Below are positions 25,740 to 51,985 of a stretch of 64,000 nucleotides of DNA, piece after piece. Made by a program: the position numbers and the translations under genes. The notes below the pieces were generated by a model. It did no database searches and was not told the DNA's origin. It saw nothing but the letters and a program-made list of their open reading frames with translations. Each line of letters begins with the position of its first letter. Within the stretch, counting starts at the first letter, position 1. The DNA lies in assembly GCA_001972305.1 (NCBI GenBank), contig BDDD01001946.1, positions 113,392-177,391 of the forward strand, in the 5' to 3' direction. The DNA is from Cephalotus follicularis. Taxonomy: Eukaryota; Streptophyta; Magnoliopsida; Oxalidales; Cephalotaceae.

Positions 25740-27610
25740 AAGTTGTCAGAGATATGTTCAAAGGTTTGGGTTTCCGTTGCTATAGGTTCCACTAAATTGG
25801 GGTCTCACTGTTGAGAAACTACAATGAAGGTACATCTAAATTTGAGATTTTTTTATTATATGAAAAGAATAATTTTATTTTATGGCAGAGTACCCATTCA
25901 AATTATTCTAGTACAACAAGATTGATTGGACATTAGAAGACGAAAGGCCAGAAGAGGCGACTGATAAATATTGACAGAAAATTCAGAAGAAAGCGATCAA
26001 CACAACACAATCAATTTTGTACTCTTCAATTCTTAACAAAGAGATATCAACAAGAAAAAAAAAAATAAAGGAATAAAAAAAAAAGAAAAAAATAAAAAAA
26101 AAAATATAAAAAAATTAAAAAATATTATATATAAAAAAAAAAAAAAAAAATAAAATATGAAAAAAAAAACAAAAAAAAAATAATAAAAAAAAAAAAAAAA
26201 AAAAAAGAATTAGAAAACGAAATGACATAACGGGTGACTGATAGAAACTAGCAGAAAATTCAGAAGAAAGCGTGACGTCAAACACAAGCAGGTTAGCACT
26301 CTTCAATTCCTAATAAAGTTGTATCAGGGACAGGTCCAAAGGTTTTAGGGTTTTCGCTGCTGAGAATATTACAATTGAAGGTATGTCTAAATTTGAGATT
26401 CCTTTGGAAATAACAATTTTACTGTGACAGAAATTCAAAATGTTTTGGTACACAACAAGTCATTGATTGGATATTAGAAGAAGAAACGTCAGAAGGGGCT
26501 ACTAATAGAGACTTGCAGAAAATTCAAAAGAAAACGATCAACACAATCAGGTTAACACTCTTCAATTCCTAGCAAAGTGCTTTCAGAGACAGGTTTAAAG
26601 GTTTAGTGTTTTCCACTACTGAGAAGACAACAATGGAAAAAGGTATGTCTAAATTTGAGATTCTTTTATTTATTGGAAAGAACAATTTTACTTTATGACA
26701 GAGTACTCATTCAAAATTTTCTGGTACAACAAGACATTGATTGAGCATTAGAAGACAAAAGGCCAGAAGGGGTTACTGATAGACACTGACAAAAAATTCA
26801 GAAAAAAGCAAGGTTAGCACTCTTCAATTCCAAAAAAAAAAAAGTGGTATCGGGGACAGATTTAAAGGTTTAGGGCTTTCCGTTGCTGAGAAGACTACAA
26901 TGGAAAAAGGTATCTCTAAATTTGAGATTCTTTTATTTATTGGAAACAACAATTTTACTTGGTGACAAAACTCATTCAAAATGTTCTGGTACAACAAGAC
27001 ATTGATTGAGCATTAGAAGATGAAATGCCAGAAGGGGTTATTGACAGAGACTGACAAAAAATTCAAAAAAAAGAAAGGTTATCACTCTTCAATTTCAAAA
27101 AAAAAATGGTATCCGAGACAGGCTCAAATGTTCAGGGGTTTTTGCTGTTGAGAAGAGTACAATGGAAGATATGTCTAAATTTGAGATTCCTTTGGAAAGA
27201 ACAATTGTACTTTGTGACATAGTATTTATTTAAAATGTTCTGGTACAACAGGGCATTGATTGGACATTAGAAGATAAAAGCCCATAAAGGGTGACTGATA
27301 GAAACTGGCAGAAAATTAAAAAGAAAGCGGTTAACACAATCAAGTTAGCACATTTCAATTCCTTAAAAAGTGGCATCAGAGATGGGTTCAAAGGTTTAGG
27401 GGCTGAGAAAACTATAATTAATGTATGTCTAATTTTGAGATTCTTTTATTTGATGGAAAGAACAATTTTACTTTGTGACAGAGTACTCATTCAAAATGTT
27501 CTGATACAACAAGACATTGATTGGGTATTAGAAGAAGAAATGCCAGAAGGGATGACTAATACAGACTATCACACAATCAGGTTAGCTCTTGCTCTAGAAA
27601 TAAAGTGTTG
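25740..27610 (+). repeat. Seven-monomer tandem array derived from a Copia gag start, unit A
   Basis: Monomers start at about 25740, 26037, 26315, 26575, 26842, 27105 and 27370, a period near 265 bp. Each begins with a tRNA-Met primer-site-like AAGTGGTATCAGAG, then TTCAAAGGTTTAGGG, then the start of a Copia gag (ATGTCTAAATTTGAGATTC, GTTCTGGTACAACAAGACAT). Each ends with CTCTTCAATTCCT, which resembles an LTR end. It is a fossil of a Copia element whose 5' region was amplified. Unit B has the same seven. Confidence 0.85.
26042..26227. other. Base-overwritten patch: every difference from unit B is to A
   Basis: Aligned by hand to 50456-50641 with no gap, about 80 positions differ. Every one of them is C, G or T in unit B and A here. 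The 25 or so surviving non-A bases all match unit B in place. Flanks of about 100 bp are essentially identical. This looks like missing base calls written as A in the assembly. A long minus-strand Phe-rich open frame here is a by-product. Confidence 0.9.
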
Positions 27611-31317: not shown

Positions 31318-31814
31318 NNNNNNNNNNNNNNNNNNNNNNNNNNNNNNNNNNNNNNNNNNNNNNNNNNNNNNNNNNNNNNNNNNNNNNNNNNNNNNNNNNN
31401 NNNNNNNNNNNNNNNNNNNNNNNNNNNNNNNNNNNNNNNNNNNNNNNNNNNNNNNNNNNNNNNNNNNNNNNNNNNNNNNNNNNNNNNNNNNNNNNNNNNN
31501 NNNNNNNNNNNNNNNNNNNNNNNNNNNNNNNNNNNNNNNNNNNNNNNNNNNNNNNNNNNNNNNNNNNNNNNNNNNNNNNNNNNNNNNNNNNNNNNNNNNN
31601 NNNNNNNNNNNNNNNNNNNNNNNNNNNNNNNNNNNNNNNNNNNNNNNNNNNNNNNNNNNNNNNNNNNNNNNNNNNNNNNNNNNNNNNNNNNNNNNNNNNN
31701 NNNNNNNNNNNNNNNNNNNNNNNNNNNNNNNNNNNNNNNNNNNNNNNNNNNNNNNNNNNNNNNNNNNNNNNNNNNNNNNNNNNNNNNNNNNNNNNNNNNN
31801 NNNNNNNNNNNNNN
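31318..31814. other. Assembly gap, 497 N
   Basis: A run of N inside the nested Copia element. Between gag on one side and RNase H on the other, a Copia element normally carries protease, integrase and reverse transcriptase, around 3 kb. The stated gap length is therefore probably not the true one, unless the element is internally shortened. Confidence 0.95.
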
Positions 31815-33588: not shown

Positions 33589-33855
33589 CTGAGAATCACT
33601 AGAGGCTTATAGTTTTTGAACCTCCAAGTGCTTCGCTATTGTCAGTCTGACAATCAGAGCTTCCCATTTTGCCTCATTATTTGTTGCTTTGAATACAAAT
33701 CTCAGATCATACTCTAAGGTTCACCCATCTGGGCTACTTAGTTTTAATCCTGCTCCACTTCCAGAAAGCATGATGACCCATCAATGGATAGCTTCCACAT
33801 GCCCTTCTCACTCCCCACTATCAGAGGAGTCTTCTTCCATATATTTTATGGGTGT

Positions 33856-34869
33856 TGTTGGAAGTCTAGAGGGGGGGTGAATAGACTTATAAAAAATAAT
33901 CTAGCAAATATACCACCAATTTTTAAATAAATACACAAACACACAATGCGGAAAGTAAAGAGTGTAGGGTTTAGAAGGTGCAAACGGATTTATAGTGGTT
34001 CGGCAAACCGCCTACGTCCACTCCCCAAGGCTTCCCCTTGAGTATTCACTAGTATGCCCCAATCCGGGCTTGGAACTCCAACCGAGCTCCAACAAACTTT
34101 CGCTTCAACCAAGCGAAATACAATTTGCTCCAACCGAGCAATACAAGAGACAACCTCTCTTGTAAGGATGAAAATGAAGGTTTAAGAGTTTACAAATTCG
34201 TAGAGAATTTGTTTACAATGAAGCACAACTTTAAACAAAGCTATAAGTGTATACAAGGTAAGAGTAAAGCTTTGTGAATGTGTAAGATTTGCTTTGGATT
34301 TGATCTCTTGTGATTGATTGAATGATTGGTATTGAACTTGAGATAGCTTGAGAGTATGTGTACTTTGAATGCTTGATCAATCTTCTAAGAGTTCCAAATT
34401 TCCTTAAATAGGTAAGCCTCCAACGGATCTATTTTTAACTGACTTTAACAAAACCAGTCGACTGGATTTGGACGGCAGCTGGCTGGATTAATGGCGCGTT
34501 TATTTGAATATAGCCGTTGGGAGAGGGCAGTCGGCTGGACTGTGTAGGCAGCCGGCTGGAGTGTACGGCAGTCGGCTGATCCCCTGCTTCAGTCGGCTGA
34601 TGAGGCTGAATTGAGAATTTGCAAAGCTTCTGTAAAAGTCGGCTGGATCTTGGACAGCCGGCTGGAATCCTGGACAGTCGGCTGGAATTGATGGCAGCCG
34701 GCTGGAATTGCCTGTACCTGCATACACAGCCTTGGCACAACTTTGGACACAAGATTAAGTGAGTAAATGCATTTATAACTCAAGGAATTTATGCGTAGAA
34801 GTAATTTACGTTTGTTAATCATCAAAATAACATGTGAAAAACATTTAATCGGGGTGGCAAAGGCCAACA
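33856..34869 (-). repeat. SIRE-like LTR, left copy
   Basis: TGTTGGAAGTC to GGCCAACA, 1014 bp. On the minus strand it stands after the polypurine tract, so it is the 3' LTR. Confidence 0.9.
34450..34720. repeat. Cluster of the near-palindromic CAGYCGGCTG motif in the SIRE-like LTR
   Basis: Variants of CAGCCGGCTGGA or CAGTCGGCTGGA occur about ten times in 270 bp at irregular spacing. CAGCCGGCTG is its own reverse complement. The right LTR carries the same cluster at about 35482-35752. It produces Pro/Ser-rich spurious open frames. It may be a binding-site cluster or recombination-prone repeat; this is inference. Confidence 0.85.
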
Positions 34870-34887
34870 ATCTCCCCCTTTTTGATT
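34870..34887 (-). other. Polypurine tract, the only interior left between the SIRE-like LTRs
   Basis: AATCAAAAAGGGGGAGAT on the minus strand, directly before the TGTTGG of the 3' LTR. In this family the tract primes plus-strand synthesis. Confidence 0.85.
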
Positions 34888-35901
34888 TGTTGGAAGTCTA
34901 GAGGGGGGGTGAATAGACTTATAAAAAATAATCTAGCAAATATACCACCAATTTTTAAATAAATACACAAACACACAATGCGGAAAGTAAAGAGTGTAGG
35001 GTTTAGAAGGTGCAAACGGATTTATAGTGGTTCGGCAAACCGCCTACGTCCACTCCCCAAGGCTTCCCCTTGAGTATTCACTAGTATGCCCCAATCCGGG
35101 CTTGGAACTCCAACCGAGCTCCAACAAACTTTCGCTTCAACCAAGCGAAATACAATTTGCTCCAACCGAGCAATACAAGAGACAACCTCTCTTGTAAGGA
35201 TGAAAATGAAGGTTTAAGAGTTTACAAATTCGTAGAGAATTTGTTTACAATGAAGCACAACTTTAAACAAAGCTATAAGTGTATACAAGGTAAGAGTAAA
35301 GCTTTGTGAATGTGTAAGATTTGCTTTGGATTTGATCTCTTGTGATTGATTGAATGATTGGTATTGAACTTGAGATAGCTTGAGAGTATGTGTACTTTGA
35401 ATGCTTGATCAATCTTCTAAGAGTTCCAAATTTCCTTAAATAGGTAAGCCTCCAACGGATCTATTTTTAACTGACTTTAACAAAACCAGTCGACTGGATT
35501 TGGACGGCAGCTGGCTGGATTAATGGCGCGTTTATTTGAATATAGCCGTTGGGAGAGGGCAGTCGGCTGGACTGTGTAGGCAGCCGGCTGGAGTGTACGG
35601 CAGTCGGCTGATCCCCTGCTTCAGTCGGCTGATGAGGCTGAATTGAGAATTTGCAAAGCTTCTGTAAAAGTCGGCTGGATCTTGGACAGCCGGCTGGAAT
35701 CCTGGGCAGTCGGCTGGAATTGATGGCAGCCGGCTGGAATTGCCTGTACCTGCATACACAGCCTTGGCACAACTTTGGACACAAGATTAAGTGAGTAAAT
35801 GCATTTATAACTCAAGGAATTTATGCGTAGAAGTAATTTACGTTTGTTAATCATCAAAATAACATGTGAAAAATATTTAATCGGGGTGGCAAAGGCCAAC
35901 A
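34888..35901 (-). repeat. SIRE-like LTR, right copy
   Basis: 1014 bp, same ends as the left copy. It is the 5' LTR by orientation. The TG...CA ends and the following GGTGT are clean. Confidence 0.9.
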
Positions 35902-50152: not shown

Positions 50153-51985
50153 AAAGTTGTCAGAGATATGTTCAAAGGTTTGGGTTTCCGTTGCTATAGG
50201 TTCCACTAAATTGGGGTCTCACTGTTGAGAAACTACAATGAAGGTACATCTAAATTTGAGATTTTTTTATTATATGAAAAGAATAATTTTATTTTATGGC
50301 AGAGTACCCATTCAAATTATTCTAGTACAACAAGATTGATTGGACATTAGAAGACGAAAGGCCAGAAGAGGCGACTGATAAATATTGACAGAAAATTCAG
50401 AAGAAAGCGATCAACACAACACAATCAATTTTGTACTCTTCAATTCTTAACAAAGTGATATCAGCGAGATTCAAAGATTTAGGGGTTTCAACTGCTGAGA
50501 AAACTATAATGGAAGGTATGTCCAAATTTTAGATTCTTTTATTTGTTGATGAAAAGAACAATTTTACTTTGTGACAGAATACCCATTCAAAATATTCTGG
50601 TACAACAAGGCATTGATTGAGTATTAGAAAACGAAATGCCGTAACGGGTGACTGATAGAAACTAGCAGAAAATTCAGAAGAAAGCGTGACGTCAAACACA
50701 AGCAGGTTAGCACTCTTCAATTCCTAATAAAGTTGTATCAGGGACAAGTTCAAAGGTTTTAGGGTTTTCGCTGCTGAGAAGATTACAATGGAAGGTATGT
50801 CTAAATTTGAGATTCCTTTGGAAATAACAATTTTACTGTGACAGAAATTCAAAATGTTTTGGTACACAACAAGTCATTGATTGATATTAGAAGACGAAAG
50901 GTCAGAAGGGGATACTAATAGAGACTTGCAGAAAATTCAAAAGAAAGCGATCAACACAATCAGGTTTGCACTCTTTAATTCCTAGCAAAGTGGTATCAGA
51001 GACAGGTTTAAAGGTTTAGTTTTTTCCACTGTCGAGAAGACTACAATGGAAAAAGGTATGTCTAAATTTGATATTCTTTTATTTATTGGAACAAAAAATT
51101 TTACTTTGTAACAGAGTACCCATTCAAAATTTTCTAGTACAACAAGACATTGATTGAGCATTAGAAGACAAAAGGCCAGGAGGGGTTACTGATAGAGACT
51201 GACAGAAAATTCAGAAAAAAGCAAGGTTACCACTCTTCAATTCAAAAAAAAAAAGAAAAGTGGTATCGGAGACAAGTTTAAAGGTTTAGGGCAATCTCTA
51301 AATTTGAGATTCTTTTATTTATTGGAAAGAACAATTTTACTTGGTGACAAAAATCATTCAAAATGTTCTGGTACAACAAGACATTGATTGAGCATTAGAA
51401 GATGAAATGCCAGAAGGGGTTATTGATAGAGACTAACAGAAAATTCAGAAAAAAGCAAGGTTATCACTCTTCAATTACAAAAAAAAAATGGTATCCGAGA
51501 CAAGTTCAAATGTTCAGGGGTTTTTGCTGTTGAGAAGGCTACAATGGAAGATATGTCTAAATTTGAGATTCCTTTGGAAAGAACAATTTGTGACAGAGTA
51601 TTTATTTAAAATGTTCTGGTACAACAGGGCATTGATTAGACATTAGAAGATAAAAGCCCATAAAGGGTGACTGATAGAAACTGGCAGAAAATTAAAAAGA
51701 AAGCGGTTAACACAATCAAGTTAGCACTTTTCAATTCCTTAAAAAGTGGCATCAGAGATGGGTTCAAAGGTTTAGGGGCTGAGAAAACTATAATGAAGTT
51801 ATGTCTAAATTTGAGATTCTTTTATTTAATGGAAAGAACAATTTTACTTTGTGACAGAGTACTCATTCAAAATGTTCTGATACAACAAGACATTGATTGG
51901 GTATTAGAAGAAGAAATGCCAAAAGGGATGACTAATACAGACTAACACACAATCAGGTTAGCTTTTGCTCTAGAAATAAAGTGTT
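50153..51985 (+). repeat. Seven-monomer tandem array derived from a Copia gag start, unit B
   Basis: Monomers begin at about 50153, 50452, 50730, 50986, 51258, 51487 and 51744. The content and order equal the unit A array, so the amplification predates the segmental duplication. The second monomer is intact in base composition here, unlike the overwritten patch in unit A. Confidence 0.85.

Follow-up and report, generated by a model that had tools for sequence, protein, structure and literature searches.

The A-rich patch at positions 26042-26227 of the window, by which we mean the whole 64-kb stretch of DNA analyzed (1-64000), is almost certainly an assembly artifact in which two versions of the locus, no longer in register, were combined one column at a time, with their conflicts written as A. 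Directly observed are the offset rule that the surviving bases follow, the presence of A for each type of conflict, the bias toward the forward strand of the contigs, and further patches that obey the same rule. The patch is not biology, and its biological interest is low. An artifact of this kind carries no N, however, and so leads astray gene prediction, repeat masking, and analyses of composition.

The patch and its copies

Aligned with its duplicate at 50456-50641, the patch shows no gap over 186 positions, as the initial annotation had stated, and the accompanying statements that every replacement is to A and that surviving bases match in place also hold. Each of the 81 mismatches is a change to A (36 from T, 26 from G, and 19 from C), 67 A's remain A, and 38 non-A bases are kept in place (23 T, 10 G, and 5 C). 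The earlier estimate that about 80 of roughly 105 non-A bases had been replaced was right in its first figure and low in its second, the fraction being 81 of 119. The flanks are nearly identical in the two copies, again as described, with 0 mismatches at 141 positions on the left (25901-26041) and 4 at 173 positions on the right (26228-26400), none of these to A. The sequence is normal in a third copy (L003, C1946:67489-68690), which lies on this contig 72 kb upstream, so A is the changed state in the patch. Coordinates of the features are collected in Table 1.

Scanned in 100-base windows with a threshold of 62% A, the 64-kb stretch contains no other A-rich segment. A general excess of A at isolated differences was considered and rejected: when mismatches outside 26035-26235 were counted across 16 pairs of duplicates in the window, A was involved in 621 and T in 580. 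Since these pairs show no such excess, the artifact must be local and merging confined to special places, which would most simply be filled gaps or collapsed paths in repeats.

Table 1. Coordinates of the patch, its parts, and the copy used for comparison (window positions)
Feature	Position	Strand	Description
Whole patch	26042-26227	+	All differences from the duplicate copy are changes to A
Patch core	26054-26210	+	Column-by-column merge with a version having 2 extra bases upstream; agreement retained, conflict written as A
Left edge	26042-26053	+	Three isolated changes to A (26042, 26050, 26052), outside the 2-bp offset rule
Right edge	26211-26227	+	Versions in register again; two isolated changes to A (26225, 26227)
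Duplicate copy	50456-50641	+	Normal sequence; reference for comparison

An offset rule for the surviving bases

In the offset test, a base is predicted to be kept if the copy equals itself at an offset d and to become A otherwise. As a control for the window core and for one further patch (L062), the surviving positions were shuffled 1000 times, and the best of 120 offsets was taken. With d = -2, meaning the same base two positions upstream in the copy, the prediction is correct at 101 of the 102 non-A positions of the core, compared with 83 for the best shuffled mask (1000 shuffles, 120 offsets); a single offset applied to the entire patch is correct at 107 of 119. Survival is not random: a base is kept where the copy, shifted by 2 bp, matches itself. 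Because this rule fits the core, we conclude that the column-by-column merge joined two versions of the locus standing 2 bp out of register. Within the core, conflicts read A in 109 of 109 cases, and non-A agreements are kept in 26 of 27. Even where neither of the conflicting letters is A, an A was written (41 of 41), which excludes voting with A as a mere tie-breaker.

Relative to the duplicate, the third copy carries a 2-bp insertion at the point where the offset begins, which shows that the copies vary in length by 2 bp there. L003 itself was rejected as the second merged version, since with it the T at 26057 would have survived and since it lacks differences at 26042, 26050, and 26052. We interpret the isolated A's at both edges as sites where the two versions differ by a single base, likewise turned into A.

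Strand bias across the assembly

The assembly was scanned as a whole (1.577 Gb in 9746 contigs). Runs of at least 24 A's, counted once per run, occur 578 times on the forward contig strand and 68 times on the reverse (p = 1e-101). Because contig orientation is arbitrary, this 8-to-1 bias must arise in the making or storing of the assembly. Overlapping matches to A44 with up to 3 mismatches number 11037 forward and 207 reverse, and interrupted A runs number 10 and 0. The first 100 places listed for runs of at least 24 A's make up 69 sites, 59 forward and 10 reverse; several runs fall in one site in 11 forward and 0 reverse cases among these same first 100 places. In a table of 30 loci drawn from the listed places (20 distinct forward and 3 reverse sites), 13 of the 20 forward sites hold A-rich segments 80 bp or longer, with lengths up to 1538 bp and ~2.2 kb, and 0 of the 3 reverse sites hold a T-rich segment longer than 41 bp.

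Two controls lean in the same direction, slightly but significantly: A runs of exactly 14 (2956 forward versus 2524 reverse; p = 6e-9) and C runs of at least 14 (1265 versus 1086; p = 2.4e-4). The forward lean of the C runs falls outside what the merge model explains and counts against it. A simple screen compares the numbers of long A runs and long T runs along the contig strand; the two should balance, an expectation from which this assembly departs widely.

Other patches in the same assembly

The initial annotation had suggested a search for all-to-A patches elsewhere in the assembly, and such patches were found. Along with the window patch, four others (L062, L048, L061, and L057), chosen for length from the 13 A-rich forward sites counted above, were compared with their copies. 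A 1-bp offset accounts for two of them along their whole length, a third follows offsets of 15 and 1 bp in different parts, and the fourth follows none.

The patch on contig C50 (L062), compared over 474 bp with a near-identical copy on C1936, keeps 68 non-A bases and differs at 210 positions, each time by a change to A. The survivors sit in doubled letters, which suggested the idea of comparing a copy with its own shifted self; d = +1 is correct at 270 of 278 positions, and the best shuffle reached 210 (1000 shuffles, 120 offsets). For L061 (C47), compared with a partner copy 7 kb away, an offset of 1 is correct at 306 of 313 positions, the best of 300 shuffles being 216. In L048 (C16), a single offset over the whole patch is hardly better than the shuffle maximum (141 of 183 versus 137), so more than one offset is needed. 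In two stretches of it selected after the offset scan, an offset of 15 is correct at 86 of 90 positions (1401-1540; shuffles up to 78) and an offset of 1 at 67 of 72 (1546-1640; shuffles up to 55). Where the two letters conflicted and neither was A, an A was written in 115 of 118 cases in L062, 124 of 126 in L061, and 37 of 37 and 31 of 33 in the two stretches of L048.

The remaining patch, L057 (C40), behaves differently. No single offset of its copy fits (best 329 of 477; shuffles reach 347), which counts against the merge model, and its right flank found no match among 40 scored candidates. Nevertheless, one register of the copy accounts for 94 of its 100 non-A letters, the next best for 40. 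L057 may be a merge with another sequence.

The very long segments noted above have the same look, 81-84% A and on the forward strand: the one of 1538 bp lies on C11 (1304273-1305618; L043-L046) and the one of ~2.2 kb on C32 (258003-259566; L052-L055 joined).

Origin of the patches and alternative explanations

On the reading we favor, two versions of a repeated locus, either two alleles or two near-identical paralogues, would have been merged with no realignment past an indel. One version would lag the other by 2 bp from ~26054 to 26210, so that an agreeing base was retained and a disagreement became A. The merging step was probably gap filling or path merging. By the likeliest route, the merge would have written ambiguity codes or no-calls, which a later two-bit step (A = 0) stored as A while retaining true N gaps as N; this conversion presumably came after the contigs had received their final orientation. 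In the loci checked, the only letters are A, C, G, T, and N; N gaps remain N, and there is no ambiguity letter. Because neither N nor an ambiguity letter marks them, such patches would stay hidden.

Where in this chain the A's entered is a separate matter. One version of the merge explanation holds that the deposited assembly has ambiguity codes and that the copy analyzed here had every letter other than A, C, G, T, and N made into A. The retained N's, the lack of ambiguity letters in the loci checked, and the appearance of A on the contig strand whichever two letters conflict are all consistent with it, but had the assembly pipeline itself made the conversion, the result would look identical, and we regard this storage-only version as a real possibility that falls somewhat short of an even chance.

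The initial annotation was correct in ascribing the patch to an assembly or gap-fill artifact on one strand; it erred in taking missing calls as the cause, the A's being conflicts between out-of-register versions. Low-coverage or low-quality no-calls filled with A, independently of the neighboring sequence, would account for the all-to-A changes, the lack of indels, and the strand bias. They predict, however, survivors that are independent of sequence, whereas those of the window core follow the 2-bp offset far beyond any of the 1000 shuffles, and further patches obey offsets as well. The offset rule thereby separates the merging of conflicts from missing data. As a sole cause, missing calls are refuted for the window patch, L062, and L061, a verdict that does not extend to L057, for which no offset was found; overall we consider this explanation very improbable. 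A biological process, with A inserted opposite a run of abasic sites or by poly-A insertion, is more improbable still and hardly to be entertained. It would fit changes that are all to A and on one strand, but across the genome that strand is the arbitrary orientation of the assembly, and no biological process knows the assembly strand. Damage at abasic sites, which the initial annotation had offered as a far-fetched alternative, should leave A patches and T patches equally often on an arbitrary strand, and it is rejected on the counts of long A runs, which are strongly forward. A poly-A tail or other A-rich insertion was likewise rejected, as the gap-free alignment leaves no extra bases between the flanks: length and register are preserved, so nothing was inserted. 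The survivors' obedience to an offset is a further point against biology of either kind.

Relation to known systems

Two-bit storage in assemblers can turn ambiguous bases into A. It would put an A at each conflict, on whichever strand the sequence is stored, and may be what produced the letters seen in the patches. Of the gap-filling tools, Sealer accepts up to two paths per gap by default, and the consensus of these paths bears IUPAC ambiguity codes at mismatched bases (PMC4515008). The patches are like Sealer output in pointing to a two-version merge that marks its conflicts. They are unlike it in that the conflicts read A where Sealer would write an ambiguity code, and in that the indel was followed by no realignment of the versions. 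Konnector v2.0 uses multiple sequence alignment for several paths (PMC4582294); such an alignment should open a gap and so avoid the offset seen here. Either tool serves as an analogy and not as an identified cause.

Among the titles listed in our literature search, none describes such an artifact, which is not proof of absence. We give about an even chance to the broader proposition that this is an undescribed class of error in public assemblies, with hundreds of out-of-register merges in one plant genome, conflicts written as A, and patches of up to ~2.2 kb. If it is such a class, it should be recognizable by strand-biased, A-rich patches and could touch other genomes made or stored in the same way.

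Sequence context of the window

Large segments of the window are present two or three times, ~93-96% identical and spaced about 35.7, 24.4, and 19.5 kb apart, and an assembler could therefore confuse copies there. In Pfam, reading frames around the patch have matches to the gag and reverse transcriptase of copia, to RVT_1, to an endonuclease domain, and to DUF4283, a combination suggestive of a plant. The sole N run of the window, 497 bases at 31318-31814, was retained as N while conflicts were written as A; by the look of the reading frame, it lies inside a copia-like element. Two 1015-bp copies that are 99.8% identical stand nearly back to back at 33855-34869 and 34887-35901, and this pair is either very recent or another effect of assembly.
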